A stretch of DNA of 27,785 nt from a virus, in the IMG/VR virus record IMGVR_UViG_3300006919_014489, positions 1-27,785 of that record; one strand, written 5' to 3'. The notes under the pieces were generated by a model, which was given only the letters and a program-made list of their open reading frames with translations, was not told the DNA's origin and made no database searches. The first letter of the stretch is position 1; each line of letters opens with the position of its first letter. Below are positions 5,883-25,719 of the stretch, one piece after another. The position numbers were made by a program, and so were the translations under genes.

Positions 5883-6869
5883 ATGGCAAAAAAATCACTA
5901 CTGCAAGAACGCATTATTTACAAACCTTTTGAATACCCAGAAGCACATGATTATTGGATGAAACAACAACAGGCACATTGGCTCCATACTGAAGTTCCTA
6001 TGATGTCTGATGTTAATGATTGGAAACAAAATCTAAATGATACTGAAAAGAATATAATTGGATCTATTTTAAAAGGGTTTGCTCAAACAGAAACTGTAGT
6101 AAATGATTATTGGTCATCTTTAGTTACAAAATGGTTTAGAAAACCAGAAGTTATTAAAATGGCTGTTACATTTGGTGCTTTTGAAACTATTCATGCTGAA
6201 GCTTATTCCTTATTAAATGAAGAATTAGGATTAGATGATTTTAGTGAATTTTTAGAAGATGAAACTACAATGGCTAAAATTGAAACTTTAATGAATGTTA
6301 GGGATGACCATGAAGGTAACCCTGATTGGCATGAAAGAGCTAAATCATTAGCTATTTTTTCTGCATTTACTGAAGGTGTAAATTTATTTTCTTCTTTTGC
6401 TGTTTTATTATCATTTAAATTAAGAAATTTACTTAAAGGTGTAGGTCAAATTGTTGAATGGAGTATCAGAGATGAATCATTACACTCAGATGCTGGTTGT
6501 TGGTTATTTAGGACCCTTTTAGAAGAACACCCAGAGTTAAATACTCCTGAATTAAAAAAACAAGTTGAAGAGGCTGCTTTACTTTCATTAAAATTGGAAT
6601 TAGATTTTATTGATAAAGTCTATGAAATGGGTGATTTAGAGGGATGTTCAAAATATGATTTAGTATCTTTTATTAAACATAGAGTAAATACTAAAATGGG
6701 AGATTTAGGATATGGACCTATAGTAAATGGAATTGATACTGAAGCAGTACAAAGAATGAAATGGTTTGATTCATTATCAGCTGGAAAACAACACACAGAT
6801 TTCTTTGCAAATAGAGTTACTAATTACTCTAAAGGAGTACAAAATTGGGATGCGGGAGCATTATTTTAA
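5883..6869 (+). CDS. nrdB: Class I ribonucleotide reductase small subunit
   Basis: Radical-generating beta subunit that works with NrdA to make dNDPs for phage replication. The ferritin-like metal site can be placed by spacing: E70 (LKGFAQTETVV), E101 and H104 (FETIHAEAY), E164 (FTEGVN), E198 and H201 (IRDESLH). The spacings (31 from first to second ligand, 34 from fourth to fifth) equal those of E. coli R2. The first ligand is Glu where class Ia/Ib enzymes have Asp, while the radical-position Tyr (Y108) is present. Chlamydial class Ic has Glu there but Phe for Tyr; the flavobacterial class Id enzyme keeps a Tyr that is not used as a radical. The metal cofactor cannot be decided from sequence. 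The nrdB-nrdA order is reversed from the common one, and the gap to nrdA is 16 bases. Confidence 0.92.
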   Translation: MAKKSLLQERIIYKPFEYPEAHDYWMKQQQAHWLHTEVPMMSDVNDWKQNLNDTEKNIIGSILKGFAQTETVVNDYWSSLVTKWFRKPEVIKMAVTFGAFETIHAEAYSLLNEELGLDDFSEFLEDETTMAKIETLMNVRDDHEGNPDWHERAKSLAIFSAFTEGVNLFSSFAVLLSFKLRNLLKGVGQIVEWSIRDESLHSDAGCWLFRTLLEEHPELNTPELKKQVEEAALLSLKLELDFIDKVYEMGDLEGCSKYDLVSFIKHRVNTKMGDLGYGPIVNGIDTEAVQRMKWFDSLSAGKQHTDFFANRVTNYSKGVQNWDAGALF

Positions 6870-6885
6870 ATAAAATTAATTTTTA

Positions 6886-8598
6886 ATGGACAATAATTTA
6901 ATAGCAGATTATACAGAATGGGAAGCAGGGAAAAATTATCCTGAATGGATGGATGAAATTTCTTTAGCCACTATTTCTAAAGGATATCTCCTCCCAGGAG
7001 AAGATGTAAAAAAAGCATATAAAAGGGTAGCTAGAGCTGCTTCTAATAGATTAAAAAAACCTGAATTAGAAAGTAAATTTTTCAAAATTATATGGAATGG
7101 ATGGGTTGGTTTAGCATCACCTGTTTTATCAAATATGGGAACAGATAGAGGTTTACCTATTTCTTGTTTTGGTGTAGATACACCTGATTCTATACGTGGA
7201 ATTGGTTTGACTAATGCGGAACTAATGAAACTCACTGCATCTGGTGGAGGGGTAGGAATAAGTGTATCTCGCATAAGACCAAGAGGAACCAGTATTTCAG
7301 GAAATGGAAAATCTGAAGGAGTAGTACCATGGTGTAAAATTTATGATTCTGCCATTATTGCTACAAACCAAGGTAATGTAAGAAGAGGTGCTGCATCTGT
7401 TAATTTAGATATCAACCATCTAGATATAGATGAATTTCTACAAATCAGAAGACCAAAAGGGGATCCTAATAGACAATGTTTAAATTTACATCAATGTGTA
7501 GTTGTAGATGATATGTTTATGCGTAAGTTAGAAGCTAGGGATCCTGATGCTTTAAATACTTGGGCTACTATTTTAAAAGCAAGAATGGAAACAGGTGAGC
7601 CTTATATCATGTATAAGGACAATGTGAATAAAAATAATCCTATTGCTTATATGCTTAATAATCTTAATGTTACAATGACTAATATTTGTACTGAGATTAC
7701 TTTATTTACAGATGAGGAACATAGTTTTATTTGCTGTTTATCTTCTTTAAATCTAGCTAAGTATGATGAATGGAAAGATACAGATACTGTAGAATTAGCT
7801 ACTTGGTTTTTAGATGGTGTAATGCAAGAATTTATTGATAAAACAAGTGGTAGGGAATCGTTCAAACGTACTCATGCACATGCTTTTAAGGGTAGAGCTT
7901 TAGGATTAGGTGTAATGGGTTGGCATACTTTTCTCCAACAGAAAAAATTACCATTCAATTCTATTGCCTCCACAGCCCATACCCATACTATCTTTTCAGA
8001 TATTAAAAATAAAGCAGAAAAAGCATCTCGTGATTTGGCTGTTGAATATGGAGAACCTTTATGGTGTAGGGGAACTGGAATGAGGAATACTCATTTATTA
8101 GCAATTGCCCCCACAGTATCTAATTCTGTAATTACTGGAGGGATTAGTGCAGGAATTGAACCTTTACCTGCTAATATTTATACTTTTAATGGTGCTAAAG
8201 GTACTTTTATTAGAAAAAATAAAGTATTACAATCTATTTTATTTGAAAAAGGAGAGGATAAAGATAGATGGTGGGATCAAATGCTCCAAGATGGAGGATC
8301 AGTACAAAATTTACCTGATAGCATTTTAACCCCTGAGGAAAAAGAACTATTTTTAACATTCTCAGAAATAAACCAATTAGAACTAGTGCGCCAGGCTGCT
8401 ATTAGGCAAAGATATTTAGATCAAACCCAATCTTTAAACCTTTCATTTGATCCAAATGATTCACCAAAATGGATTAACCAAGTTCATATGGAAGCTTGGA
8501 AATTGGGAATAAAGACATTATATTATTTACGTACAGATTCCGTTATTAAAGGAGATTTAGGTTCTAGAATGGCTGATTGTGTAAGTTGTGATGGGTAG
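6886..8598 (+). CDS. nrdA: Ribonucleotide reductase large subunit, no ATP cone
   Basis: Catalytic alpha subunit of class I ribonucleotide reductase. Active-site residues are visible: C94 (PISCFGVD) and C283 (FICCLSSLNL) as the redox pair, N266-C268-E270 (TNICTEI) as the thiyl radical site, Y546-Y547 (LYYLRT) for radical transfer, and the C-terminal C565/C568 pair (CVSCDG), which is re-reduced by thioredoxin. At 570 residues it is well short of the E. coli protein (about 760): the N-terminus begins close to the catalytic barrel and lacks the ATP-cone domain, so overall dATP feedback inhibition is probably absent. A thioredoxin-like protein at 18014 is a plausible reductant. The next gene is the TonB-dependent receptor after a 75-base gap. 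Confidence 0.93.
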   Translation: MDNNLIADYTEWEAGKNYPEWMDEISLATISKGYLLPGEDVKKAYKRVARAASNRLKKPELESKFFKIIWNGWVGLASPVLSNMGTDRGLPISCFGVDTPDSIRGIGLTNAELMKLTASGGGVGISVSRIRPRGTSISGNGKSEGVVPWCKIYDSAIIATNQGNVRRGAASVNLDINHLDIDEFLQIRRPKGDPNRQCLNLHQCVVVDDMFMRKLEARDPDALNTWATILKARMETGEPYIMYKDNVNKNNPIAYMLNNLNVTMTNICTEITLFTDEEHSFICCLSSLNLAKYDEWKDTDTVELATWFLDGVMQEFIDKTSGRESFKRTHAHAFKGRALGLGVMGWHTFLQQKKLPFNSIASTAHTHTIFSDIKNKAEKASRDLAVEYGEPLWCRGTGMRNTHLLAIAPTVSNSVITGGISAGIEPLPANIYTFNGAKGTFIRKNKVLQSILFEKGEDKDRWWDQMLQDGGSVQNLPDSILTPEEKELFLTFSEINQLELVRQAAIRQRYLDQTQSLNLSFDPNDSPKWINQVHMEAWKLGIKTLYYLRTDSVIKGDLGSRMADCVSCDG

Positions 8599-8673
8599 TT
8601 TATTTAATAGTAAAGTCAAATGTTTTAAGATAAGGTTAAGATATTTATATAAAGTTTAAAAAAAGGTTATGTT
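8599..8673 (+). promoter_or_regulatory. Gap upstream of receptor gene with ATATTTATA element
   Basis: This 75-base AT-rich gap contains ATATTTATA at 8641-8649, a 9-mer that recurs in the gaps at 11266, 13589 and 25142. It ends in an A-run followed by GGTTATGTT just before the ATG. No clear TTG/TAnnTTTG pair is visible, so calling it a promoter is only a suggestion from position. Confidence 0.25.
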
Positions 8674-11214
8674 ATGTTTAATTCAAAAAATCATGTGTAC
8701 ATGAGAAATTTTTCAAAGTTACTATTATTAACATTAGTGACAGGATGGGCTTATGCCCAAGAAGTTGAACAGGAAACTGTTCAAACTCAAGAACTTGAAG
8801 AAGTAGTAGTTTCTTCTAGGGTAATTGATATTGCCAAAGAAAGGGTAACACCCGTAGCAGTTTCTACTATTTCAGCTCAAGACATTAGTTTAAAAGTTGG
8901 AAATCAAGAATTTCCAGAAATTATGAACAGCACACCAGGTGTTTATGCTACCAAACAAGGAGGAGGGTATGGAGATTCTCGTATCTCACTTCGTGGTTTT
9001 GATCAGCGTAATACATCTTTCCTTATCAATGGGCAACCTGTTAATGATATGGAAAATGGGTGGGTGTATTGGAGTAACTGGCAAGGTTTAACAGACGTTG
9101 CTTCAGGTATCCAAATTCAAAGAGGTCTTGGTGCTTCAAGATTAGCTGTACCATCGGTAGGAGGTACAGTTTCTATCTTTACTAAGACTGCTCAAATAGC
9201 TGAAGGCGGTTCATTAACTCAATCTTTAGGTAATGATGGTTACAGAAAAACTTCTGCAATCTACAATACTGGAAAGAATGAGAATGGGTTTGCTGCTTCT
9301 GTTTTATTATCAAGATGGCAAGGTGATGGGTATGTTAACTTTACAGGAGGAGAAGGATGGACTTACTTCTTTGCTTTAGGTTATGATCCAGATGATTCTA
9401 ATCATGCCTTTAACCTATCAGTTTTAGGAGCAGGTCAATGGCACCACCAACGTTCAGTGTGGGTTTCTATTCGTGATTATCAAAACTTTGGTTCTGAAGG
9501 AATTGATAGGAGATGGAATACTAACGGTGGATACTTAAATGGAGAAGAGTACAACATTCGTCGTAATTTCTACAACAAACCACTTGCTACATTTAACTGG
9601 GATTGGGATATTTCTGATAATGTCCAGTTAAATACTTCCCTTTATGCTTCTGCAGGACGCGGAGGAGGAACAGGTCCAAGAGGTAACAATTACAGAAACT
9701 CAGACATCGATTTGTACCCATTCAGACAAGACTTAACTGAGCAGTTTGAAGAAGGTAAAGGAGTTGCTTCAAGAGATTCAAACGGATTCATTAATTTTGA
9801 TAATGTAGTAGCAGTAAACCAAGCGACTACTCAAGGTTATGACGGACCAATTTCTGGATTTGCCGGACAGTTAATAGGTGGAAACAGAAACCCAGGAGGA
9901 AACGTAAACAGAAACGTACTTATCCGTAGAGCATCTATGAACTCTCATGACTGGATTGGCGGTATTTCTTCTTTAGATATTACATCAGGAAGATTTAAAT
10001 ATTCATTAGGTGTAGATTTAAGAAGCTACAAAGGATACCACTATAGAGTTTTAAATGATCTTTTAGGATTAGATGGATATTACTCAGGTGGAAACAGAAA
10101 TAGTGCAGGACAGATTATCAACACTACTGTTGAGGCTAATCCTTTTAAGAACACTGGAATCAGAGGCCCTAAAATTGATTACTACAATATTGGTAATGTA
10201 AAATGGACAGGTTTCAACGGTATGGCTGAGTACAATGGAGATGTATTTACTGCAGTAGTTCAAGCTGGTACCTCTACTCAATCTTACCAAAGAGAAGATT
10301 ACTTTGACCAACCAGCTAATCCTATCTCAAATAAGAAAAATATTGGCGGTGGGTACCTTAAAGGGGGTGTAAACTATAACTTAAGCAAAGTTAGCAATAT
10401 TTTCGCTAATGGAGGTTTAATCTCTCGTCAGCCATTATTTGACGCAGTTTTCCCTAACTATCAAAACGATGTTAATCCTAATCTACAGAATGAGAAAATT
10501 AACTCATTTGAGATTGGGTACGGATATAACGATGGTAGATTAAAGTTAGATGTTAATGCTTATACTACAGTATGGGGTAATAGATTTGTATCTCGTTCAT
10601 TAACTAACCAGCAAGGTGTAGATGGATTTGCACAATTTAGAAATATCGATGTAGTACACAATGGTATTGAATTTGAAGGTCGTTATAGATACTCAAATAA
10701 CACTACTTTCAAAGGTATGCTTTCTATGGGTGACTGGAGATATACTAAAAACTTTGAGTCTGAATTATTTGATGATAATCAACAGCTAATAGGTACTGGA
10801 ACTCTTTATACTAAAGGAGCTAAGGTAGGTGATGCAGCTCAGTTTACTGCTAATTTCCAAGTAGATCATAGATTAGGTAATAAATTTAAAGTAGATGCCA
10901 GCTACAGATTTGTAGATGGTTTATATGCTGACTATTCTATTACAGATTCAGCTTTTACACAAGCTGATAATAAAGGAGCAGTTAAATTACCTTCCTATTC
11001 ATTAGTAGATGCAGGTGCAACTTTTTACATCAGTCCAAGCTTTACTTTAAGAGCTAATATGAATAATGTATTTGATACAACTTATATTGCAGAATCAAAT
11101 TCTAACATTCATGCAGAGGCAGGTTCTACAACTTGGAATGGAATTGATACTAGAAACTCAGTATGGTTCGGATTCGGACGTACTTGGAATGCTTCTTTAA
11201 AATATACATTTTAA
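8674..11214 (+). CDS. TonB-dependent outer-membrane receptor
   Basis: Complete 846-residue outer-membrane receptor of the TonB-dependent family. A signal peptide is visible (basic MRNFSK, hydrophobic LLLLTLVTG, cleavage after AYA-Q); the ATG at 8701 is a likely alternative start with a tidier signal. The mature N-terminus carries a TonB-box-like LEEVVVSSR, then a plug domain at roughly residues 60-175 with PGVYATKQGG, ISLRGFDQRNTSFLINGQPV and RGLGASRLAVPSVGGTVSI. A long beta-barrel of aromatic-rich strands follows, ending in the terminal Phe (SLKYTF) used for outer-membrane insertion. The carboxypeptidase-like N-terminal domain common in Bacteroidetes homologues is missing. The substrate cannot be read from sequence. 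Base composition looks somewhat less AT-rich than neighbours, consistent with gain from a host. It is closed by a strong terminator. Confidence 0.93.
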   Translation: MFNSKNHVYMRNFSKLLLLTLVTGWAYAQEVEQETVQTQELEEVVVSSRVIDIAKERVTPVAVSTISAQDISLKVGNQEFPEIMNSTPGVYATKQGGGYGDSRISLRGFDQRNTSFLINGQPVNDMENGWVYWSNWQGLTDVASGIQIQRGLGASRLAVPSVGGTVSIFTKTAQIAEGGSLTQSLGNDGYRKTSAIYNTGKNENGFAASVLLSRWQGDGYVNFTGGEGWTYFFALGYDPDDSNHAFNLSVLGAGQWHHQRSVWVSIRDYQNFGSEGIDRRWNTNGGYLNGEEYNIRRNFYNKPLATFNWDWDISDNVQLNTSLYASAGRGGGTGPRGNNYRNSDIDLYPFRQDLTEQFEEGKGVASRDSNGFINFDNVVAVNQATTQGYDGPISGFAGQLIGGNRNPGGNVNRNVLIRRASMNSHDWIGGISSLDITSGRFKYSLGVDLRSYKGYHYRVLNDLLGLDGYYSGGNRNSAGQIINTTVEANPFKNTGIRGPKIDYYNIGNVKWTGFNGMAEYNGDVFTAVVQAGTSTQSYQREDYFDQPANPISNKKNIGGGYLKGGVNYNLSKVSNIFANGGLISRQPLFDAVFPNYQNDVNPNLQNEKINSFEIGYGYNDGRLKLDVNAYTTVWGNRFVSRSLTNQQGVDGFAQFRNIDVVHNGIEFEGRYRYSNNTTFKGMLSMGDWRYTKNFESELFDDNQQLIGTGTLYTKGAKVGDAAQFTANFQVDHRLGNKFKVDASYRFVDGLYADYSITDSAFTQADNKGAVKLPSYSLVDAGATFYISPSFTLRANMNNVFDTTYIAESNSNIHAEAGSTTWNGIDTRNSVWFGFGRTWNASLKYTF

Positions 11215-11237: not shown

Positions 11238-11264
11238 AAAAGGGGACCTAAGGGTCCCCTTTTT
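11238..11264 (+). terminator. Intrinsic terminator after the receptor gene
   Basis: A perfect 11-base-pair inverted repeat (AAAAGGGGACC at 11238-11248 and GGTCCCCTTTT at 11253-11263) encloses a 4-base loop, and the 3' arm runs into five Ts. It lies 23 bases after the receptor stop codon and is the only strong rho-independent terminator I see in the window. Confidence 0.9.
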
Positions 11265-11303
11265 AATATTTATAATTGTATTTAATTTTAAAATCAAAAT
11301 ATT

Positions 11304-11606
11304 ATGTTATCTTTATTAAAAAAATTTTTTAATCTTTTTAAACGTAAACCAAAATCTGACCCAAAACATACCCCAGATTATACTTTAATTAATAAAATGC
11401 CAACCCCAGAGGAAGCTGAAGAAAAGTTAAAAGCAGAACAATTAAAAAAATTGTCTGAAACTTCTTCTGTAAAAAAAACAACTAAATCCAAACCTAAAAC
11501 TTCAAAACCTAAAACGGTAAGAAAAAAGAAAGTTGTAACACCAGTAGAAAAAAAACCAACACCAAGAAAATCTACAAAAACAGTTAAAGATAAAAAAATA
11601 AAATAA
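11304..11606 (+). CDS. Lys/Pro/Thr-rich basic protein
   Basis: Not a recognised family. The 100-residue product begins with a short amphipathic helix, MLSLLKKFFNLFKRK, that could bind a membrane surface. A helical linker (residues about 35-52) follows, then a strongly basic low-complexity tail with repeated SKPKT/KKPT units up to the C-terminus, resembling histone H1-like or other nucleic-acid-binding tails. It is the first gene after the terminator and leads the cluster holding the membrane proteins and the peptidoglycan peptidase (4-base gap to the next gene). DNA or envelope association are both possible; neither is shown. Confidence 0.6.
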   Translation: MLSLLKKFFNLFKRKPKSDPKHTPDYTLINKMPTPEEAEEKLKAEQLKKLSETSSVKKTTKSKPKTSKPKTVRKKKVVTPVEKKPTPRKSTKTVKDKKIK

Positions 11607-12566: not shown

Positions 12567-12914
12567 ATGTATATTTACAACGCAGAACTTATTAGAGTAG
12601 TAGATGGAGACACTGTCCATGCTATGGTAGATTTAGGTTTTAATACCTGGATAAAAGCAAATATTAGGTTATTTGGTATTGATGCTTATGAAAGTAGAAC
12701 TAGAGACCTAGAAGAAAAAGAAAAAGGCTTAAAAGCTAAAGAAAGATTAAAAGAAATACTATCAGTAAATAATAATAAATTTAAACTAAAATCTCATGGT
12801 TTAGATAAGTATGGTAGAAGTTTAGGAACTTTACTTGTTGAGCCCTTAGGAGATTTAAATCAATTGTTAGTAACTGAAGGTCATGCAGTACCATATGATG
12901 GAGGTAAACGTTAA
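12567..12914 (+). CDS. Staphylococcal-nuclease-like (SNase) protein
   Basis: Ca-dependent nuclease of the thermonuclease fold. The 115-residue protein keeps the active-site pattern of SNase with nearly identical numbering: DGDT at 13-16, R34 and D39 in NIRLFGIDAYES, E42, and R84 in KYGRSLG (R35, D40, E43 and R87 in the Staphylococcus enzyme). It lacks a signal peptide and is trimmed to the core OB-fold. It follows the endolysin gene by one base and overlaps the start of a second nuclease gene, so two different nuclease folds are made from adjacent, coupled genes. Host DNA breakdown or attack on foreign DNA are candidate roles. Confidence 0.83.
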   Translation: MYIYNAELIRVVDGDTVHAMVDLGFNTWIKANIRLFGIDAYESRTRDLEEKEKGLKAKERLKEILSVNNNKFKLKSHGLDKYGRSLGTLLVEPLGDLNQLLVTEGHAVPYDGGKR

Positions 12915-13584
12915 GTCTAAGTTTAATATGGTTATTTGTTTTATTTTACTTTTACTTTTAAGTGGTTGTACTAAAGATGTAATTAAATCAACTCCCCCAG
13001 TACAAACTGTAAGAGAACTAAAAGAAATAGAAACTGACTATAGTAATAGTGTTTCAGTTCAGAACAATGTATTTACAGTTTTATATTCAGAGATTTATCA
13101 ACAACCTATTGAACTTACTTACACATCTACTGATAGACCTAAGAATGTAGATAGAGATGATGGAGGATATAATTGGTTTACAGAAGAAGGAATTATTACT
13201 TCTGATAATGACGATTACTATGATAATCCTTGGGATAGAGGTCATATAGCTCCGGCTGCTACATATTCGGATAGTCAGGAGAATCTACTACAAACCTTCT
13301 CATTTTTAAATTGTGCATTGCAGAAAGATAATTTAAATAGAGGTGAGTGGAGAGAGTTAGAAGAAATGGAAAGAGTATGGGATGATACAGAGAACCTAAT
13401 AATAGATGTTACAATAAAATTTTCAGATTCAGTTTTACCTACAGGAGCTAGAATACCTTTTAGCTTTAGAAAATGTATAACCTTTATAGACCAAGGCAGT
13501 ACTAGATGCTTTGAGTTTCCTAATAAAGATACAAATAAAAATTGGACAGAATACGAAGTCCAAAATGGTAGAAGTAAATATTAA
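12898..13584 (+). CDS. Lipoprotein DNA/RNA non-specific endonuclease (NUC1-like)
   Basis: Predicted exported nuclease anchored by lipid. The N-terminus has basic residues (VKSK), a hydrophobic run FILLLLLSG and a lipobox-type Cys (LSGC), so the mature protein should be tethered outside the cytoplasm. The domain shows the beta-beta-alpha-metal motif of the NUC family: DRGH with the catalytic His in NPWDRGHIAPAATYSDS, and the metal-binding Asn region LNCALQKDNLNRGEWRELE. Possible starts are ATG 12883, 12895, 12898 and 12928; I chose 12898 because it gives a standard signal with a basic n-region. It overlaps the SNase-like gene by 17 bases. Export distinguishes it from the cytoplasmic nucleases phages normally use to degrade host DNA. 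Confidence 0.82.
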   Translation: MEVNVKSKFNMVICFILLLLLSGCTKDVIKSTPPVQTVRELKEIETDYSNSVSVQNNVFTVLYSEIYQQPIELTYTSTDRPKNVDRDDGGYNWFTEEGIITSDNDDYYDNPWDRGHIAPAATYSDSQENLLQTFSFLNCALQKDNLNRGEWRELEEMERVWDDTENLIIDVTIKFSDSVLPTGARIPFSFRKCITFIDQGSTRCFEFPNKDTNKNWTEYEVQNGRSKY

Positions 13585-15484: not shown

Positions 15485-16306
15485 ATGAAAATATCACATG
15501 AAGTACCACGCTGTTTATTAGTAGCATCTCCTGAGTTTAATGATTATGATTATTGTTTACCTCATTTATTAGACCAAGATGAGGAATATAAACAGTATTT
15601 TTTAGATGCTAAATCTAAAGGAAGGTATATTATAATGGATAACTCACTTCATGAATTAGGAGAGGCTTATGAACATAAAAGATTAATGCATTGGGTAAAA
15701 GAATTAGAACCTAATGAATTTATTGTTCCTGATGTTTGGATGAAAGCCCACCAAACTGCTTCCCAAGCTAAATATTGGAAACAATTTAACTATCCTAAAA
15801 ACACTAAAATTATAGCAGTAGTTCAAGGTGAAGATAAAAACTCTGCTTATTTATGTGCTAATTTATTATTAACTTTAGGATATGAAAAATTATGCATTTC
15901 ATATGGTGCTACTTGGTACAATAATTTTTTTCCTCATTCTAATTTAGATATGGGAAAAGCATTAGGTAGAGTAAGATTTGTACAAGGATTACTCAATTTA
16001 GATCAGTTTAAAAATATTAAACTTCATTTATTGGGATGTTCAATTCCACAAGAATTTGGGTGGTATGATAATCATCCCCAAATTGAATCAATTGATACTT
16101 CAAATCCTATTATGGCTGCCTTAGATGGCACCAAATACAGTAGTAATGGTGTGAATTACAAACCAAATGCTAATATGAATGATTTTTTTAACATTAAATT
16201 TGAAGATGTTAAATATGAAGATATTATTTATAATACAACTAAATTTAGAGAAATTAATAATTTGAATAAAACTAAACAATATGGCACTAGAAGTAAAACC
16301 GTTTAA
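15485..16306 (+). CDS. dpdA: DpdA-like tRNA-guanine-transglycosylase-fold DNA modification enzyme
   Basis: Predicted transglycosylase that swaps guanine in DNA for a 7-deazaguanine base. The 273-residue protein shows the TGT-fold landmarks: MDNSLHELGE (D52, E57), VPDVW (D83), IAVVQGED (Q114-G115, the substrate-binding VQG), LHLLGCSIP (181-188, matching HLLGVG-P in TGT) and SIDTSNP with D204 at the place of the nucleophilic Asp. It is shorter than bacterial Tgt and lacks its C-terminal zinc-binding Cys/His cluster, as expected of a DNA-acting DpdA-type enzyme. Genes for QueC, QueD, QueE and FolE lie just downstream, supplying preQ0. A tRNA-modifying role is the alternative, but the whole preQ0 pathway beside a lone TGT-like gene in a phage favours DNA. 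Confidence 0.8.
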   Translation: MKISHEVPRCLLVASPEFNDYDYCLPHLLDQDEEYKQYFLDAKSKGRYIIMDNSLHELGEAYEHKRLMHWVKELEPNEFIVPDVWMKAHQTASQAKYWKQFNYPKNTKIIAVVQGEDKNSAYLCANLLLTLGYEKLCISYGATWYNNFFPHSNLDMGKALGRVRFVQGLLNLDQFKNIKLHLLGCSIPQEFGWYDNHPQIESIDTSNPIMAALDGTKYSSNGVNYKPNANMNDFFNIKFEDVKYEDIIYNTTKFREINNLNKTKQYGTRSKTV

Positions 16307-16454
16307 AATCTCAGTTGAACATTGGGATAAGAAAGTTACAGTAGAAATAGATCATTCTGATATTACATGGGATGAATATGTAGATTTATTAAAAGAAGTA
16401 ACAAAGGCTGTTGGATGGGCAGATGATAGTATATCCGAATTGTTTGACAATTAA
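16281..16454 (+). CDS. Small acidic hypothetical protein (57 aa)
   Basis: A 57-residue ORF begins MALEVKPFKISVEHWDKK and ends SISELFDN; its ATG lies inside the last 26 bases of the DpdA-like gene. A beta-rich start (KKVTVEIDHSDI) is followed by an amphipathic helix (WDEYVDLLKEVTKAVGW) and an acidic end. This resembles small proteins I associate with Bacteroidetes phages, but no function is known to me. The coding sense is supported by the overlap arrangement and by the 9-base gap before the next gene. Confidence 0.6.
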   Translation: MALEVKPFKISVEHWDKKVTVEIDHSDITWDEYVDLLKEVTKAVGWADDSISELFDN

Positions 16455-16463
16455 AAATATAAT

Positions 16464-16688
16464 ATGGTAGAAGTAATAAAACACACATTAGGGTTTTGTG
16501 GAGAACATTGGCACCCAAATATCTGGACCCTTCTTGCAGGGGGGTTTGGATTAGCAGGTACTTATTATTATATTATATCCTATCTCAAATGTAGATATAA
16601 TAAATTTAAATCAGCGTTTGCCTATACGCTTAATAATACCTGGCAAAATTTAATTAATTATTATAAATCATGGCGAAAAATGTCGTAG
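16464..16688 (+). CDS. Small membrane protein between dpdA and queC
   Basis: This 74-residue protein has one membrane span (about residues 20-40, WTLLAGGFGLAGTYYYIISY) preceded by a Cys/His-containing segment GFCGEHWHPN and followed by a basic, aromatic tail. No family is recognised. Its end overlaps the queC start by 19 bases, so it belongs to the same translational chain. Nothing indicates that it takes part in the queuosine-type chemistry. Confidence 0.6.
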   Translation: MVEVIKHTLGFCGEHWHPNIWTLLAGGFGLAGTYYYIISYLKCRYNKFKSAFAYTLNNTWQNLINYYKSWRKMS

Positions 16689-17464
16689 TATCCTTATCTG
16701 GAGGGATGGATTCCTCAACTCTACTACTCAGATGTTTATCAGAGTATGACAATGTAACTGCTATCTCTTTTGACTACGGTCAGAAGCATAGGGTAGAGTT
16801 AGAACGAGCTCAATCTTTAGTGAATTATTTAAATGATAATGGGCAGAAGATTAATTACCAAGTTATTAAATTAGACGGTTTAGTTAACTTATTAGACTCT
16901 AATCTTGTAGAAGGTGGGGAAGATGTACCAGAAGGTCATTATGAAGAAGAAAATATGGTAGCAACAGTTGTACCTAATAGAAATAAAATCTTCTCTTCAT
17001 TAACCCAAGCTGTAGCATTATCCGTATCTAAAAAAACAGGAGAAGAATGTGATATAGCATTAGGTATCCATGCTGGTGATCATGCTATTTATCCTGATTG
17101 TAGACAAGAATTTAGAGATGCTGATTATGAAGCTTTTAAAATTGGTAATTGGGATGCTGATAAGGTAGGGTTTTTTATACCTTATATCAATACTGATAAG
17201 TTAGGAATCTTACAAGATGGGGAAAAATTAGTTAATGGGTTAGGTATTGAGTTTGATGAAGTTTATAAGAGAACAAATACCTCTTACAAACCTTATCCAT
17301 CAGGTAACTCAGACTATAAATCTGCCTCTTCAGTAGAAAGAATCGAAGCTTTTATTTCACTAGATAGACCAGATCCAGTACAGTATGAAGACGAGACGGG
17401 GCCTGTTAGTTATGAAGTTGCTAAAGCTCACGTTGAAAAGTTATTAGCTGAGTATTCAAGTTAA
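16670..17464 (+). CDS. queC: 7-cyano-7-deazaguanine (preQ0) synthase QueC, zinc-site variant
   Basis: ATP-dependent amidation/dehydration of 7-carboxy-7-deazaguanine to preQ0. The PP-loop SGGMDS lies at 10-15, VPNRN at 101-105 and the QueC signature YPDCRQEF at 141-148. The C-terminal zinc site of canonical QueC (four Cys in the patterns SCY and CGxCxxC-xx-R) is altered: the aligned positions are S205, D215, S218 and S221 before R224, so no zinc Cys remains while the surrounding pattern (TNTSY, SSVERIEAF) is kept. The 264-residue length is slightly above the usual 220-240. It overlaps the membrane protein upstream and is followed after 7 bases by an exported protein gene. Catalytic residues look intact, so I expect activity. 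Confidence 0.9.
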   Translation: MAKNVVVSLSGGMDSSTLLLRCLSEYDNVTAISFDYGQKHRVELERAQSLVNYLNDNGQKINYQVIKLDGLVNLLDSNLVEGGEDVPEGHYEEENMVATVVPNRNKIFSSLTQAVALSVSKKTGEECDIALGIHAGDHAIYPDCRQEFRDADYEAFKIGNWDADKVGFFIPYINTDKLGILQDGEKLVNGLGIEFDEVYKRTNTSYKPYPSGNSDYKSASSVERIEAFISLDRPDPVQYEDETGPVSYEVAKAHVEKLLAEYSS

Positions 17465-17471
17465 AAATAAA

Positions 17472-17855
17472 ATGAAACAATTTGTTAAAATAATAAAATT
17501 AGTTATGTATAGATTAAAAAAACTACTATTTATATTAATGTTGCCCTTAACTACCTTAGGATTTAGTCAAGAAGAATTAAAATTACCTTCTGAAATTTAT
17601 GGTATTTGGAGGAGTATAGATAATGAATTTGTTAGTATTTACACTAATTCTGAATTTGTTACTGTTTTTGATAGAAGATCCCCTGGGGGGCAAAGATTAG
17701 CTTATGGTACTATAAATTATAAAAATGGGGAAATGTGTATTAATCGTTTAGATACCCCAGATGAATATTCTTTAGCATTTATTGTTGGGGAATCTACTTT
17801 AGTAATAACTAAACCGAGATCTACACAAGCTTGGTTATGGACTAAAATACAATAA
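17472..17855 (+). CDS. Small exported protein
   Basis: No named family. The 127-residue precursor has a signal peptide: a basic stretch MYRLKK, hydrophobic LLFILMLPLTTLG and a probable cleavage site FSQ-EE. The internal ATG at 17505 gives the cleaner signal and is the likely alternative start. The mature part is about 95 residues with alternating beta-like segments, beginning ELKLPSEIYGIWRSIDNEFV, reminiscent of small lipocalin-like or DUF-type beta-barrel proteins described as GIW/GxW domains; this is only a resemblance. Presence of an exported protein between queC and queD suggests that the cassette has picked up unrelated cargo. Confidence 0.65.
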   Translation: MKQFVKIIKLVMYRLKKLLFILMLPLTTLGFSQEELKLPSEIYGIWRSIDNEFVSIYTNSEFVTVFDRRSPGGQRLAYGTINYKNGEMCINRLDTPDEYSLAFIVGESTLVITKPRSTQAWLWTKIQ

Positions 17856-17856
17856 A

Positions 17857-18012
17857 ATGAAACACCCAGACGCAAAAAAACATCAAATTATAAGTTTTAT
17901 AAAATCTGGAATTAGAATCCTAGGGTATATTCTTATACCCTATGGTTTGGTTCCTGCAGCAGGAGTTCTTATATTTAGTGAAATAATTGGTATAATTGAA
18001 GAATTAGTTTAA
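17857..18012 (+). CDS. Small membrane protein (51 aa)
   Basis: A 51-residue ORF starts MKHPDAKKHQIISFIKSGIR and ends SEIIGIIEELV. It has one glycine- and isoleucine-rich hydrophobic helix (about residues 19-42) between a basic N-terminus and an acidic C-terminus. It begins one base after the previous stop and ends one base before the thioredoxin gene, filling the gap exactly, which supports coding. I recall similar short MKHPDAxKHQ proteins from marine phages and their hosts, but no function. Confidence 0.65.
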   Translation: MKHPDAKKHQIISFIKSGIRILGYILIPYGLVPAAGVLIFSEIIGIIEELV

Positions 18013-18013
18013 T

Positions 18014-18259
18014 ATGAAAAAAATACTTTATTTTAGTGCCGCATGGTGTGGCCCGTGTAAAACATTAGGTCCAATAATGGAATCATTATCAGGACAAATT
18101 AATTATGAAAAAATTGATGTAGATAGTAATCGGGATTTATCTATTAAATATAGTGTTAGAAATATCCCTACTTTAGTTTTAGTTAAGGATGGAGAAATAC
18201 AAGGCAGATTAGTTGGTTTACAAACAAAAGAACAAATATTAGATTTTTATAATGGGTAA
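18014..18259 (+). CDS. Thioredoxin-like protein
   Basis: Minimal thioredoxin-fold disulfide reductase of 81 residues. The active site is AAWCGPCK (residues 9-16, WCGPC), and the cis-Pro loop is RNIPTLVL, followed by the GEIQGRLVG strand. It lacks one N-terminal strand/helix of full thioredoxin (about 105 residues), a common reduction in phage thioredoxins. Its probable jobs are reducing the C-terminal Cys pair of the phage NrdA or serving as general reductant. Its 3' end overlaps the queD-like gene by 8 bases. Confidence 0.9.
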   Translation: MKKILYFSAAWCGPCKTLGPIMESLSGQINYEKIDVDSNRDLSIKYSVRNIPTLVLVKDGEIQGRLVGLQTKEQILDFYNG

Positions 18260-18716
18260 GTTTCAATCAAGTAAAGTATTTGACGGCTTTTCTACTGTAT
18301 TCAGACAATGGAAAGCAGAAGAAACCCATTGTAAATTTATCCATGGCTATGGAATTTCATTTAAGGTTTACTTTGAAGGAGATTTAGATCATAGAAATTG
18401 GGTGTGGGATTTTGGGGGTATGAAACGGGCAAATGAGACTATAGATGGTATGTCTCCAAAAGAATGGATGGATTATATGTTTGATCATACCTTAATCATT
18501 GCAGAAGATGATCCATATATTAAGGCTTTTCAACAAATGGAAGAAGCAAAGGTAGCCCAAGTAAGAGTAATTCCTGCTACTGGAGCTGAAAAATTTGCTG
18601 AATATATTTATAATAAGCTAAATGAGTTTGTTAAAGCAGAAACTAACAATAGGGTTAGAGTAACTAAAGTTAAATTTTCTGAACACGGAAAAAATGCAGC
18701 TTATTATAGCGAATAA
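18252..18716 (+). CDS. queD: 6-carboxytetrahydropterin synthase-like QueD
   Basis: Predicted conversion of dihydroneopterin triphosphate to 6-carboxytetrahydropterin, the second step toward preQ0. The 154-residue protein shows the PTPS/QueD arrangement: THCKFIHGYGISFKVYFEG with C27 and H31, VWDFGGMK (49-58), FDHTLII (77-83), GAEKFAEYI (111-119) and a C-terminal KVKFSEHGKNAAYY. The zinc motif reads HGY rather than HGH, and the usual upstream AAH is FRQW-KAE, which matches a divergent QueD branch rather than the E. coli type. Adjacent thioredoxin and QueE genes and the downstream FolE support the assignment. Exact substrate cannot be settled from motifs alone. Confidence 0.82.
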   Translation: MGKFQSSKVFDGFSTVFRQWKAEETHCKFIHGYGISFKVYFEGDLDHRNWVWDFGGMKRANETIDGMSPKEWMDYMFDHTLIIAEDDPYIKAFQQMEEAKVAQVRVIPATGAEKFAEYIYNKLNEFVKAETNNRVRVTKVKFSEHGKNAAYYSE

Positions 18717-18758
18717 AAGTTATATAGTGACTGTAAAACCACTTAAAAAAATTAACAT

Positions 18759-19532
18759 ATGCTAAAAAGAATAGAAGATTACAGTAAAAAATTACCTGTA
18801 TTAGAATTATATACAGCAGTACAATCAGAAGGAAGCCGTCAAGGGTATCCGACAATAGTAGTAAGAACAACAGGATGTACACATAGATGCTATTTCGGAG
18901 AAGGTGGGTGGTGTGATTCTTGGTATACAAGTATCCACCCAGAAAAAGGCCAATACTGCTTCCAGGATATAATTGATATGTATGATAAAAACCCCCATAT
19001 ATCTGAAATGATGTTAACTGGAGGTTCACCCACAATGCATCCTAAGTTAGTTAATGAATTAACTCATTTTGCGAATGAAAGAAACATCTTTATTACCATC
19101 GAAACCGAAGGTTCGCACTTCTTACCCACTGACTACCCTATTCATTTGTTATCTATTAGTCCTAAGTTTTCTAATTCTATCCCAACTTTAGGAGCAACTA
19201 CTCCCCAAGGATCAGAAGTAGATGAAAAAATGATTAAACAACATAATAAACTTAGACTTAATACTGAAGCCATCAAAAAGTCTATTGAGTATCATCATGA
19301 TTATCATATTAAACCTGTATTAGACAAAGAATTATCTATGATAGGTGAAGTAGAAGATTTCCTAACTGAATGTAATATCCCAGATGAAAAAGTATGGGTA
19401 ATGCCAGCAGGGGATGATAGAGAATCATTATTCGAAAGTTATGGTCCAGTTATGAATTTTGCTAGAGATAAGGGTTGGAGGTTTACAGGTAGAGCTCATA
19501 TTATGGCATTTGATACCGAAAGATGTGTCTAA
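18759..19532 (+). CDS. queE: 7-carboxy-7-deazaguanine synthase QueE (radical SAM)
   Basis: Radical-SAM enzyme rearranging 6-carboxytetrahydropterin to 7-carboxy-7-deazaguanine. The N-terminal ELYTAVQSEGSRQGYPTIVV matches the QueE entry segment (substrate Glu/Gly-rich loop), followed by the iron-sulfur cysteines C40, C44 and C52 in GCTHRCYFGEGGWCDS. The usual radical-SAM spacing is CX3CX2C; here it is CX3CX7C, a five-residue insertion before the third Cys. The SAM-binding TGGSPTMHP lies at 87-95, and later ETEG (about 114-117) and SPKFS segments fit QueE. The length of 257 is typical or slightly long. A 42-base gap without a clear promoter separates it from queD. Confidence 0.88.
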   Translation: MLKRIEDYSKKLPVLELYTAVQSEGSRQGYPTIVVRTTGCTHRCYFGEGGWCDSWYTSIHPEKGQYCFQDIIDMYDKNPHISEMMLTGGSPTMHPKLVNELTHFANERNIFITIETEGSHFLPTDYPIHLLSISPKFSNSIPTLGATTPQGSEVDEKMIKQHNKLRLNTEAIKKSIEYHHDYHIKPVLDKELSMIGEVEDFLTECNIPDEKVWVMPAGDDRESLFESYGPVMNFARDKGWRFTGRAHIMAFDTERCV

Positions 19533-19555
19533 GCAAGAAGCTCTTCGTATATTGG
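19525..19555 (+). promoter_or_regulatory. Possible internal promoter ahead of folE
   Basis: Inside coding sequence, GTG (19525-19527), a 20-base spacer ending in TTCG and TATATTGG (19548-19555) mimic the intergenic promoter series, including the TCGTATATT 9-mer. It lies about 95 bases before folE. It could be chance within coding DNA. Confidence 0.25.
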
Positions 19556-19659
19556 AGGAAATAGAGGAAAATGTTAATACATGTTGTGCTATTACTATGG
19601 AGCCCGATGAAGTATTAGTTTTAATAGATAAATTAAAAAGTTATATAAATGGAGAATAA
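19525..19659 (+). CDS. Small hypothetical protein between queE and folE
   Basis: The frame is open from 19459, but the ATG there lies 74 bases inside queE. The GTG at 19525 gives a compact 44-residue protein (VSKQEALRILEEIEENVNTC, then CAITMEPDEVLVLIDKLKSYINGE) that overlaps queE by only 8 bases and folE by 11. It is helical and acidic with two adjacent Cys. No family is recognised. The start choice is by overlap geometry rather than by a ribosome-binding site. Confidence 0.5.
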   Translation: MSKQEALRILEEIEENVNTCCAITMEPDEVLVLIDKLKSYINGE

Positions 19660-20344
19660 ACGTAGAAAAATCCATGAAGAATTAGAAGTTGTACAAGAAG
19701 GTTTTGCTAATGGGGTAGCACCTGGTTTTCCATTCACAGATCAAGAAAAATCAAAAATGATTGATGAAGCAGAAGAAGCATATGGTAAGTTTCTTGATGC
19801 TTTAAAGTGTGATTGGAGAAATGATCCTAATTCTATGGAAACCCCTCGCCGTGTAGCTAAAGCTTATGTTAATGATTTATGGGCTGGTAGATACAATGCA
19901 ATGTCCCCTATTACATCATTCCCATCTGATGGTTATGATGGCGTTATTATAGAACGTAATATACCATTAACTTCAATGTGTTCTCACCATCACCAAACTA
20001 TTGGTGGGGTTGTACATATAGGTTATATAGCAGGAGAAAATGGTCAAGTTATTGGGTTATCTAAATTAAATAGGATTGTAGAGTTATTTGGACGTAGGGG
20101 AGCTATTCAAGAACAATTAACGTCTGCAATTCATAATGCTGTAGATAAAATTACATCTAAAAATAAAGGAGTTATTGTTACTATTGTTGGTACTCATAAT
20201 TGTGTATCCTGTAGAGGGGTTAAGCACCAAGGTGCAGCAATGGTAACAACAAAAGCTTCTGGAGCATTTAGAGATGATTCAAATCAAGCCCGTAAAGAAT
20301 TTTTTGATAGTTTAAAAATTAATAATGGAGGGCATAATATATAA
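19649..20344 (+). CDS. folE: GTP cyclohydrolase I FolE
   Basis: First enzyme of the pathway, converting GTP to dihydroneopterin triphosphate. The 231-residue protein carries the FolE zinc site and active site: SMCSHHHQTIGG with C111 and H114, and GTHNCVSCRGVKHQGAAMVT with C185. The upstream TPRRVAKAY segment (65-73) and VIGLSKLNRIVELFGRR (134-150) are characteristic. An N-terminal extension of about 40 acidic residues precedes the domain. It overlaps the small ORF upstream by 11 bases and shares one base with the phosphoribosyltransferase start (TAATG). In this setting it supplies the preQ0 branch rather than folate. Confidence 0.93.
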   Translation: MENKRRKIHEELEVVQEGFANGVAPGFPFTDQEKSKMIDEAEEAYGKFLDALKCDWRNDPNSMETPRRVAKAYVNDLWAGRYNAMSPITSFPSDGYDGVIIERNIPLTSMCSHHHQTIGGVVHIGYIAGENGQVIGLSKLNRIVELFGRRGAIQEQLTSAIHNAVDKITSKNKGVIVTIVGTHNCVSCRGVKHQGAAMVTTKASGAFRDDSNQARKEFFDSLKINNGGHNI

Positions 20345-20754: not shown

Positions 20755-21313
20755 ACAATTAGAATTAGACTTTGAAGTATACAATTCAAAAGAAAATGGA
20801 AATATTCCGTTTGTAAATGAAGTAGAAGAATTTAATACAACATTTAATAAACCAAATAATTATGAACCAACAATCCCCGAAGAAAAGGAATGGAAATTTG
20901 TTTATGATTTTGTCCTTGAAGAACTCGAAGAATATAGAGAAGCTTGCGAAAGAGGAGACATTGTGGAAATTTTGGATGCTTTGTGCGACATTGCTTATGT
21001 TTCCCTTGGGAACGGTACTATGCTACATGGCCTTAAGGATAAGATATGGCCGGCATATCAAGAGGTACAAGCTAGTAATATGTCGAAAGCTTGCAAAACT
21101 GAAGAAGAAGCCATACAGACCGTCAGCCAAAGAAGTAAGGAACAAGGTGAGGCCTGCCATTTTGAAAAGGTTGCGGATGGACGGTTTGTTGTCTATAGAT
21201 CCCGAGATAGAAAAGTTCTCAAATCACTTAACTACTTTAGACCAAATTTAGGGCAATTTTTTACAGATGAGGAAATTATTAAAACAAAACCACAACAGCA
21301 TATAGGGATTTAA
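20747..21313 (+). CDS. MazG-like nucleotide pyrophosphohydrolase
   Basis: All-alpha NTP pyrophosphohydrolase predicted to cleave (d)NTPs to monophosphates. Metal-binding motifs are EELEEYREA (E58, E59, E62) and EILDALCDIAYV (E74, D77, D81), with the phage-type C-terminal extension SNMSKACKTEEEA followed by a beta segment GRFVVYRSRDRKVLKS. The N-terminal 45 residues are a low-complexity leader. The gene lies between the phosphoribosyltransferase and the polymerase, with 8- and 1-base overlaps. Codon use in about 20890-21230 is visibly less AT-biased than the flanks, which suggests a recombined segment. It might sanitise nucleotide pools or, in the alternative, lower alarmone levels as proposed for cyanophage MazG. 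Confidence 0.83.
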   Translation: MGKQLELDFEVYNSKENGNIPFVNEVEEFNTTFNKPNNYEPTIPEEKEWKFVYDFVLEELEEYREACERGDIVEILDALCDIAYVSLGNGTMLHGLKDKIWPAYQEVQASNMSKACKTEEEAIQTVSQRSKEQGEACHFEKVADGRFVVYRSRDRKVLKSLNYFRPNLGQFFTDEEIIKTKPQQHIGI

Positions 21314-23022
21314 TGTATAAAAAATGTTATGCCACTAGATTAGGAGGCAATAAATACAAGATTCATTTATGGGATGAAGGTGGATATGATGAAATTGAAT
21401 GGTATAATCCTGCTTACCAAGAGTGTTCTAAGGAAGAGGCAACCCACATAGGTTTAAGTGGAGAGCCTCTTCGTAAAATTTATAAATGGGATAAAAATAC
21501 TTCTAATTTACACTTTCATGATATAACCCCATATCAAAAATTTCTTATAGAGAAATACGGGGTTAATGATGAACCCTCTACAGGACATAGGGAATTATTT
21601 TTTGATATTGAGTGTGAAATTGGGGGTGCTTTAACAGAAGATTATATAGAAAGAGCCCCTATGCCCATTACTACAATAGCATATTGGGATAAAACCCCTG
21701 ATAATTGGGTTATTTTAGTTCGCGATGATAAAAATGAATTAAAACGTACTAAAGCTAAAAATAAAGAAATAGTTCCTTGCAGAACTGAATCAGAATTATT
21801 AGCTAAATTTTTAGAACGTTTTAGAGAAATTGATCCTGATATTTTAATTGGTTATAATAGTGATTATTTTGATATACCTTATTTATATTATAGAATGTGT
21901 AATGTATTGGGTAAAGAATGGGCTGATCAATTGTCACCAATTGGTAAAGTAAATGCTAAAAAAAATAATGAATATTTTTTTAAACAAAACCAATTTGTAG
22001 ATATTATTGGAGTTGAGTCTTTGGATTATATCCGTTTGCACAAAAAATACAGTTGGAAAGATGAACCAAGCTGGAAACTAGACGCTATTGGGGAAAAGTA
22101 TGTAGGTGTTGGTAAAGTAGAATATGATGGAAATTTAGATCAATTATTCAAAACGGATTTACAAAAATATATTCAATATAATTTTGTTGATGTTGAAATA
22201 TTAAAATTATTAGATGAAAAACTTCAATATATAGCTTTAACAAAAAATCTATCTCATAAAGGAAAACATAATTATAGTGAAGTTTATGCAAATAGTAAAA
22301 CCCAAGATGGAGCTATATCAGCATATCTTTTAAGTCAGGGAATTACCCCTCCTAGTAAAGATCCAAATCCTAGAAGCAAAAAAGGTTATGCAGGAGGATA
22401 TTTATTTTGTCCTAAGGCTGGATTATACAAGTATATGTTTGATGAAGATTTAACTTCGTTATACCCATCTATTATAATGTCTTTAAATATAGGACGTGAA
22501 ACTTATAAGGGACGTATTATAGATGCTGATGATCGTAATAATAGATTAGGTCTTAGTGATTTGAAAGAACGTGATTACGATGAAGAATTATTAGTTGAGA
22601 ATAGTAAAGGACAACAAACTAGAGTTAATATTGGGAGATTAATTCGAATGGTTGAAGAAAATAACTTAACATTATCCGCTAATGGTTCAATGTTTACCAC
22701 AGATAGACAATCTACTTTATCTACAGTATTAAATAAATGGTTTGCTGAACGTAAATTATATAAGGGTAAAATGAAAGAAGCATACAAAGCAGGAGATAAA
22801 GAAAAAGGTGCCTATTACCATTTAATGCAATACACAATGAAAATTTTGCTTAATTCACTTTATGGGGCTACAGCGTTACCCTCATTTAGGTATGGAATGA
22901 GCTTGTCTATACTAAGTGAAGCAATTACATTATCGGGTCACCGCATTATCCAAGAATCAGCTTTGTGCGCTAATAGACATATGAATGAAGTATTACGTGG
23001 AAATAAAAAATTAGAATTATAA
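21313..23022 (+). CDS. Family B DNA polymerase, N-terminal part (gp43-like, split)
   Basis: First half of the replicative polymerase: exonuclease, palm and fingers. Proofreading residues are FFDIEC (D98, E100), IGYNSDYFDIPYL (N182, D187) and YNFVDVEIL (Y289, D293). Polymerase motif A is DEDLTSLYPSIIMS (D378 to S386), and motif B is KILLNSLYGA at 510-519. The reading frame ends about 50 residues after motif B, before the catalytic DTD of motif C, which is in the separate gene at 23422. In one-piece T4 gp43 these lie about 60 residues apart, so essentially nothing is lost. The stop shares a base with the next ATG (TAATG). Activity must require assembly of both products. Confidence 0.92.
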   Translation: MYKKCYATRLGGNKYKIHLWDEGGYDEIEWYNPAYQECSKEEATHIGLSGEPLRKIYKWDKNTSNLHFHDITPYQKFLIEKYGVNDEPSTGHRELFFDIECEIGGALTEDYIERAPMPITTIAYWDKTPDNWVILVRDDKNELKRTKAKNKEIVPCRTESELLAKFLERFREIDPDILIGYNSDYFDIPYLYYRMCNVLGKEWADQLSPIGKVNAKKNNEYFFKQNQFVDIIGVESLDYIRLHKKYSWKDEPSWKLDAIGEKYVGVGKVEYDGNLDQLFKTDLQKYIQYNFVDVEILKLLDEKLQYIALTKNLSHKGKHNYSEVYANSKTQDGAISAYLLSQGITPPSKDPNPRSKKGYAGGYLFCPKAGLYKYMFDEDLTSLYPSIIMSLNIGRETYKGRIIDADDRNNRLGLSDLKERDYDEELLVENSKGQQTRVNIGRLIRMVEENNLTLSANGSMFTTDRQSTLSTVLNKWFAERKLYKGKMKEAYKAGDKEKGAYYHLMQYTMKILLNSLYGATALPSFRYGMSLSILSEAITLSGHRIIQESALCANRHMNEVLRGNKKLEL

Positions 23023-23285
23023 TGGCTTTAAGTAAACAATCAATTAGAAAAGGAATAATTATCCTAGTAAATGGTGAAACCATATCTAAAGAAGAATTAA
23101 TAACTATGAGTGAGTTATGGGATGATAGACAAGAAAATTTTTTTAGAAAAATGTTAAAACAAGGAGGAAAATTTTCAATAAATAAAATCCCTTTTGAAAT
23201 TCACCCCCCAGAAAAAATTATAACTTCTTCAGGAGAAGTTGATACTGGAGTAGTTACAATACCAGGGGAAGATGTAAAATTTTGA
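23022..23285 (+). CDS. Small hypothetical protein inserted in split polymerase
   Basis: 87-residue soluble protein with no named family: a basic start MALSKQSIRKGIIILVNGET, a helix KEELITMSELWDDRQENFFRKMLKQGG, then a beta-like end FSINKIPFEIHPP and an acidic C-terminus. It shows none of the homing endonuclease signatures (GIY-YIG, HNH, LAGLIDADG). It starts on the last base of the upstream polymerase half and ends in TTGA overlapping the next small ORF. Being locked by overlaps between the two halves suggests either a functional partner or a harmless passenger of the event that split the gene. Confidence 0.65.
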   Translation: MALSKQSIRKGIIILVNGETISKEELITMSELWDDRQENFFRKMLKQGGKFSINKIPFEIHPPEKIITSSGEVDTGVVTIPGEDVKF

Positions 23286-23425
23286 GGAAGCTTTTATATG
23301 ATATAGTGTTTAATCATAAAAAGATAATTATATTTAAACATAAAGTGGAAATATTTCATATAATGTTTGTATTAATGTATTTAATACTAAGTTATTATGT
23401 TTACACTAAAGTCTTATTTATATGA
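23282..23425 (+). CDS. Small membrane protein (47 aa) bridging to polymerase C-terminal gene
   Basis: A 47-residue ORF with a TTG start overlaps the preceding stop (TTGA, as at the helicase start 4497) and its TGA overlaps the next ATG (ATGA). It begins MRKLLYDIVFNHKKIIIFKH and has a hydrophobic helix IMFVLMYLILSYYVYTKVLF at its C-terminus. The two exact overlaps fill the gap between the 87-residue ORF and the second polymerase half and argue for coding, but the AT-rich sequence could carry this ORF by chance. Confidence 0.4.
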   Translation: MRKLLYDIVFNHKKIIIFKHKVEIFHIMFVLMYLILSYYVYTKVLFI

Positions 23426-25647: not shown

Positions 25648-25665
25648 TAAGTTTTACTAAAATAC

Positions 25666-25696
25666 GTGTCCTAACACATTATTTTTCGTATATTTA
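25666..25696 (+). promoter_or_regulatory. Bacteroidetes-type promoter upstream of the GroES/GroEL block
   Basis: GTG in place of TTG (25666-25668), a 20-base spacer ending in ATTTTTCG, then TATATTTA (25689-25696); the ATG at 25720 is 23 bases further. Its 16-base core TTATTTTTCGTATATT is shared with the element at 13608-13638. It would drive the unknown gene, groES and groEL together. Confidence 0.55.
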
Positions 25697-25719
25697 CATG
25701 TAATTTAAATAAATGTTAT

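Follow-up and report, generated by a model that had tools for sequence, protein, structure and literature searches.

The open reading frame at 8674–11214 of the window (the whole 27,785-base stretch of DNA analysed here, a complete virus record) is a real gene on the plus strand that encodes a complete TonB-dependent receptor (TBDR) of 846 residues. On balance we favor the view that this protein is a working import receptor captured from the host, serving the phage as an auxiliary gene for the uptake of extracellular nucleic-acid breakdown products. Its carriers are T4-like phages of marine Bacteroidota, and sequence comparisons indicate repeated transfer of a single host orthologue, both between cells and phages and from phage to phage. 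The auxiliary genes known from phages mostly encode enzymes of the cytoplasm. The repeated exchange of a complete outer-membrane importer between widespread phages and one host orthogroup implies selection that is both strong and specific.

The receptor gene and its position in the phage genome

The initial annotation had described a complete TBDR with a TonB-box-like segment, a plug and a barrel ending in Phe, and closer analysis bears this out. The protein matches the Pfam families Plug (PF07715, E 1.9e-12) and TonB_dep_Rec_b-barrel (PF00593, E 2.1e-9), both above the curated cut-offs; the barrel strands form a full-length set in its AlphaFold2 model (mean pLDDT 87.8, pTM 0.86), FhuA, PqqU and FecA are among the closest solved folds found by Foldseek, and the C-terminal residue of the barrel is Phe. 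The start at 8674 should probably be moved to the ATG at 8701, because Met10 hardly varies and is where the nearest homologues begin. From 8701 the N-terminus reads MRNFSKLLLLTLVTGWAYA|QEV. A carboxypeptidase-like N-terminal domain (CarboxypepD_reg), present in many relatives, was not found by the Pfam search, as the initial annotation had stated, and no SusD partner was seen among the window ORFs examined. Having neither, the receptor does not appear to belong to the SusC/RagA family.

Table 1. Features of the window around the receptor gene
Feature	Position	Strand	Basis and remarks
nrdB and nrdA, ribonucleotide reductase, directly upstream of TBDR	5883..8598	+	Pfam
Spacer, nrdA stop to TBDR	8599..8700	+	holds ATATTTATA at 8641-8649
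TBDR gene, likely start	8701..11214	+	Pfam Plug and barrel, AlphaFold2 model, Met10 conservation
Putative signal peptide MRNFSKLLLLTLVTGWAYA of TBDR	8701..8757	+	by reading of the sequence; looks typical
TonB box LEEVVV of TBDR	8794..8811 (residues 41-46 counted from 8674)	+	kept in most phage and bacterial copies
TBDR plug domain	8842..9183 (about residues 57-170)	+	PF07715; 60% of positions invariant, 60 rows
TBDR beta-barrel, last residue Phe	9205..11211 (residues 178-846)	+	PF00593, model, Foldseek
Terminator-like hairpin after TBDR	11238..11263	+	same position as nrdA terminator of TBDR-less relatives
Small gene after hairpin	11304..11606	+	start resembles post-terminator gene of TBDR-less relatives
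NucA-type DNA/RNA non-specific endonuclease	12883..13584	+	PF01223, E 7.7e-19; six genes downstream of TBDR

The replication and nucleotide module of the window is T4-like and includes a single-strand binding protein, UvsX, a helicase, nrdB, nrdA, a split DNA polymerase and a clamp, several of these names having been given by reading rather than by family search. The contig is that of a phage, its other genes being T4-like replication genes common to many virus contigs, and the bacterial origin against which the initial annotation had cautioned is not borne out. The simplest reading of the insertion site is that the TBDR gene entered at the end of the nrd transcription unit, 5′ of its terminator. 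In several nrdA relatives that lack a TBDR, a terminator hairpin comes next after the nrdA stop, with a small gene starting like ATGTTAAATTATTTAAA behind it. The statement that a strong terminator sets the receptor apart is weakened: a hairpin does lie downstream of the gene, but it looks like the terminator of the nrd operon rather than the TBDR's own, since the TBDR-less relatives have one directly after nrdA. Terminator-like sites in a scan of the window also showed no excess over shuffled sequences. The spacer motif ATATTTATA recurs at 11266-11274, just past the hairpin; it occurs 7 times in the window, where 3.1 occurrences would be expected, and is a possible promoter element. GC and GC3 of the TBDR gene (0.364 and 0.222) slightly exceed those of most other genes in the window, which shifts them towards the bacterial homologues.

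A flavobacterial receptor shared by phages and bacteria

Carriage of this receptor is wider than the initial annotation had indicated. A scan with the window protein gave 407 candidate stretches, the best 80 of which were taken and share 62–86% identity with it; a second scan, with a distant Flagellimonas homologue, gave 80 loci whose identity did not exceed 47%, and all 62 that were newly fetched already fell within loci of the first scan. The close phage set is thus essentially closed at about 80 IMG/VR contigs (the best 80 of 407) from many metagenomes, and the remaining stretches are more distant receptors. A barrel match was uninterrupted in 20 of 20 long TBDR-bearing records tested, and five of the 20 also contain a T4-type major capsid protein. 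When records were instead chosen by similarity to nrdA, only 1 of 50 had a barrel match; because of this rarity, the empty sites of relatives and the existence of a host homologue, the gene is best regarded as accessory, a phage auxiliary gene or moron. At least 16 different gene families lie directly upstream of the phage copies. The order nrdA–TBDR recurs in independent contigs (L024, L046, L052, L057, L176 and L177), which argues against a chimera, and on the strength of this recurrence chimeric assembly is rejected as an explanation of the family. Genes that flank the phage copies are common to virus contigs and almost absent from bacterial loci, the exceptions being L082, which is itself a phage contig, and the nucleases of L087 and L089. 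Among the isolated phages of INPHARED there was no close match to the window TBDR. The phage contig L082, whose TBDR is 84% identical to that of the window, is binned in Crocinitomicaceae MED692, and this binning hints at a host group.

In bacteria the close homologues are encoded on the chromosome, for the most part in Flavobacteriia and in some cases in Cytophagia and Balneolota. In 34 bacterial loci the gene directly upstream is pgi (phosphoglucose isomerase), usually with an M23 peptidase and DUF3108 ahead of it; the linkage extends to an outgroup at 44% identity. The orthologue is single-copy in 32 of 33 genomes tested; the other genome has two copies, one of which matches phage contig L082. 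Close members of this pgi-linked group (e.g. L083, L085, L154) share 65–75% full-length identity with the window protein and have the same plug, TonB box and barrel, while distant ones (e.g. Flagellimonas L136) share about 44%. Unlike their chromosomal orthologue, however, the phage copies do not stand beside pgi, occupy many positions in phage operons, and often adjoin nuclease and kinase genes. The window TBDR is nested in the tree among close bacterial members of the orthogroup and follows nrdA rather than pgi, as befits a transferred relative rather than a chromosomal gene. The comparison with flavobacterial receptors that the initial annotation recommended thus points to a single-copy, pgi-linked flavobacterial orthogroup as the donor, and its suggestion of a host-acquired auxiliary gene is strengthened.

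Phage and bacterial copies are interleaved in the tree. A single viral origin was rejected when all phage copies were constrained to one clade (AU p=4e-62, on a quick LG+G4 tree rather than a mixture model). Moreover, TBDR identity is poorly coupled to nrdA identity: L002 is 86% identical to the window in its TBDR and 58% in NrdA, while the corresponding values for L046 are 69% and 88%. It is because copies interleave, the single clade is rejected and the two identities are uncoupled that we read the history as one of repeated transfer, a reading that concerns the overall pattern of movement between phages and bacteria and among phages.

Selection, neighboring genes and the probable ligand

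The receptor is under strong purifying selection. Between phage copies dN/dS is 0.05–0.21, with synonymous sites near saturation for pairs that include the window. When 60 rows from phages and bacteria are compared, the plug hardly varies, most rows retain the TonB box, and variability in the outer loops, delimited by eye on the model, does not exceed that of the barrel. Because the box is retained, the plug and loops are conserved and dN/dS is low, import of a conserved ligand fits best, ahead of a decoy or a receptor swap; of the roles that the initial annotation had listed, nutrient uptake is favored, and surface-receptor change and decoy lose ground. A deviating TonB box (e.g. LAAASVVANVID) occurs in one phage branch (L060, L061, L063, L067-L074, L078, L079) and is shared with bacterial L103, L106, L107 and L112.

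The neighboring genes suggest what the ligand might be. A secreted S1/P1 nuclease was present in 13 of 50 TBDR-bearing and 0 of 50 TBDR-less records (Fisher p 1e-4), a P-loop protein in 26 of 50 and 0 of 50, and NucA in 14 of 50 and 6 of 50 (p 0.08, a weak enrichment), these being counts from sets of different phage lineages and so not independent. The S1/P1 gene lies 42–406 bp downstream of the TBDR in the phage loci measured, and its product, for which the isolated phages of INPHARED gave no close match, can be aligned with S1/P1 nucleases of solved structure, starting at the mature Trp; the residues that we take to correspond to the zinc ligands of P1 are invariant. NucA endonuclease stands directly upstream of the TBDR in eight phage loci, mostly with a lipoprotein-type signal. 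The nearest folds of the P-loop protein are NadR, deoxynucleoside kinases and thymidylate kinases; a PDB sequence search with it gave no match, and it is by fold alone that it points to nucleoside or nucleotide kinases. It is often accompanied by a 75-residue membrane protein that matched nothing in the PDB and nothing convincingly in Pfam. On the bacterial side the neighbors are mostly housekeeping genes (pgi, M23, UvrC, RecJ), and secreted nucleases are the informative exception: locus L089, from a Candidatus Arcticimaribacter MAG, combines, in this order, the TBDR, an S1/P1 nuclease, a Na+-dependent nucleoside transporter, a LOG-type protein and NucA, and an Exo_endo_phos_3 enzyme whose N-terminus resembles a signal is encoded two to five genes downstream in 11 flavobacterial loci. 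From the S1/P1, NucA and kinase-fold neighbors in phages, together with L089 and the Exo_endo_phos_3 loci in bacteria, we infer with moderate support that the ligand consists of nucleic-acid breakdown products, either oligonucleotides or nucleotides. Many phage copies, including that of the window, have no adjacent nuclease or kinase. The position beside nrdA means little in this respect, because T4-like phages carry many nucleotide genes anyway. Part of the neighbor labeling is based on single-linkage clusters and on simple ORF calls.

Several further neighbors were observed. A gene of the IMP dehydrogenase/GMP reductase family lies directly upstream of the TBDR at L016:645-1715 and at 16 other loci, and in one phage group a glutamine-synthetase-like gene lies shortly downstream, at L053:10216-11349 and in its relatives L066-L070 and L078. 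In the 252-kb phage behind L010 (region L316:2552-9342) a second, different TBDR of 658 residues lies close to a lipoprotein of the NucA type and to the P-loop kinase-like protein that the other receptor cassettes contain. In the contigs of L008 and L009 the NucA match is far from the TBDR (G070:2143-2697 and G020:51341-51895), and the matched stretch of reading frame includes one stop codon.

Uptake of some other scarce nutrient, such as an iron-siderophore, haem, a vitamin or a saccharide, with the nuclease neighbors coincidental or otherwise employed, is in our judgment unlikely but merits real weight. The solved fold neighbors of the receptor mostly bind siderophores, PQQ or copper, and the best NCBIfam matches, all below cut-off, are models of haem, siderophore and B12 receptors. 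As evidence of substrate the solved relatives are uninformative: phmmer found no solved relative that gave a clue, Foldseek did not discriminate, and a profile search against solved relatives matched only the N-terminal domain, the plug and short C-terminal stretches. Class I ribonucleotide reductase requires a metal, and its genes precede the TBDR in the window. However, the annotated phage and bacterial loci had no genes for siderophores, haem, B12 or SusD beside the TBDR, and what recurs there instead are secreted nucleases of three unrelated families. Precedent for a nutrient role comes from the marine megaphage Mar_Mega_1 and LR745206, whose TBDR was annotated as SusC and read as functioning in carbohydrate uptake (PMC9723777). 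The likeness lies in a marine-phage TBDR being read as a nutrient importer. These phages are nevertheless of another type than that of the window, the region of LR745206 that matches the window protein is limited to residues 53–237 (33% identity), and no link of SusC to a nuclease or a kinase was met in the text consulted (PMC9723777). Mar_Mega_1 was the only report of a phage TBDR found in a literature search of incomplete coverage, in which we also found no account of breadth among T4-like phages, of a single repeatedly transferred orthogroup or of an association with nucleases and kinases. Phage TBDRs as such are already known.

It is improbable that the phage receptor instead remodels the cell surface, altering or competing with host receptors to the detriment of superinfecting phages, or acting as a decoy. 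Phages commonly use TBDRs as receptors, and T5 blocks FhuA by means of Llp (PMC9586334), so that there, too, a phage gene acts at a TonB-dependent receptor; the solved Llp–FhuA complex is among the Foldseek matches of the window protein. Llp, however, blocks the receptor of the host and is itself a small lipoprotein, whereas the window gene encodes a whole receptor of 837–846 residues, depending on the start, a distinction that the initial annotation had drawn correctly. A receptor swap should diversify the loops and needs no TonB box, yet here the loops are as conserved as the barrel, the box is kept and dN/dS is low, and an entropy comparison found no phage-specific change in the loops relative to the bacterial copies.

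It is very improbable that whole DNA is transported, and not its breakdown products, in connection with flavobacterial natural transformation. In Riemerella anatipestifer the outer-membrane pair RA0C_RS04915/RS04920 is essential for transformation (PMC8459023), and tonB mutants transform less well (PMC8383284). This pair resembles the present system in being flavobacterial, located in the outer membrane, equipped with a TBDR-type N-terminal domain and linked to nucleic acids, and the regions of the bacterial orthologues L117 and L136 hold proteins with the same domains (CarboxypepD_reg and DUF5689, in L117 also DUF5017), adjoined by the Exo_endo_phos_3 enzyme. The likeness is one of domains only, the TBDR is a different protein that in the window lacks the CarboxypepD_reg domain of the pair, and the phage cassettes carry nucleases, which degrade DNA. 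Finally, that a host gene was fused to a phage contig in assembly, or is carried unused, is scarcely credible: its slightly raised GC and GC3 apart, the receptor is found in about 80 contigs from many metagenomes, five of them with a T4-type capsid gene, with intact barrels in every record tested, a shared nrdA–TBDR arrangement in independent contigs and purifying selection between phage copies.

A proposed scavenging module and other genes of the window

Returning to uptake of nucleic-acid breakdown products, we envisage that during infection the phage TBDR would be placed in the outer membrane and powered by TonB-ExbBD of the host. Where the phage loci are fullest, an exported NucA endonuclease would first cut extracellular DNA or RNA, the TBDR would take up the fragments, and a periplasmic S1/P1 nuclease would finish them; the small membrane protein may act at the inner membrane, and the nucleoside/nucleotide-kinase-like protein would feed the products into the phage nucleotide pool. 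The window would represent a reduced form, with the TBDR beside nrdAB and NucA nearby. The window NucA has a lipoprotein-type signal (LLLSGC) and a DRGH motif, and may be functionally tied to the TBDR. More tentatively, and with somewhat less than even confidence, we propose that marine Bacteroidota phages carry a mobile, envelope-spanning module for nucleic-acid scavenging, composed of NucA, TBDR, S1/P1 nuclease, membrane protein and kinase, the core receptor of which has been captured repeatedly. Such a module could supply phage DNA synthesis from the DNA of lysed neighbor cells. If the ligand is indeed derived from nucleic acids, these phages would scavenge DNA outside the cell, including DNA released by sibling phages through lysis, and a flavobacterial receptor that is conserved but uncharacterized would gain a testable substrate.

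Other parts of the window have features of their own. DNA polymerase B (21313-24387) is split into ORFs at 21313-23022 and 23422-24387 with an 87-residue ORF between them, and the relative L063 has the same arrangement. Genes read as QueC-, QueD-, QueE- and FolE-like lie in 15485-20344, together with a possible DpdA-like protein at 15485, and these deazaguanine genes suggest that the phage DNA is modified. The region 25231-27785 encodes Hsp20, GroES and GroEL of the phage, the last interrupted by the end of the contig.
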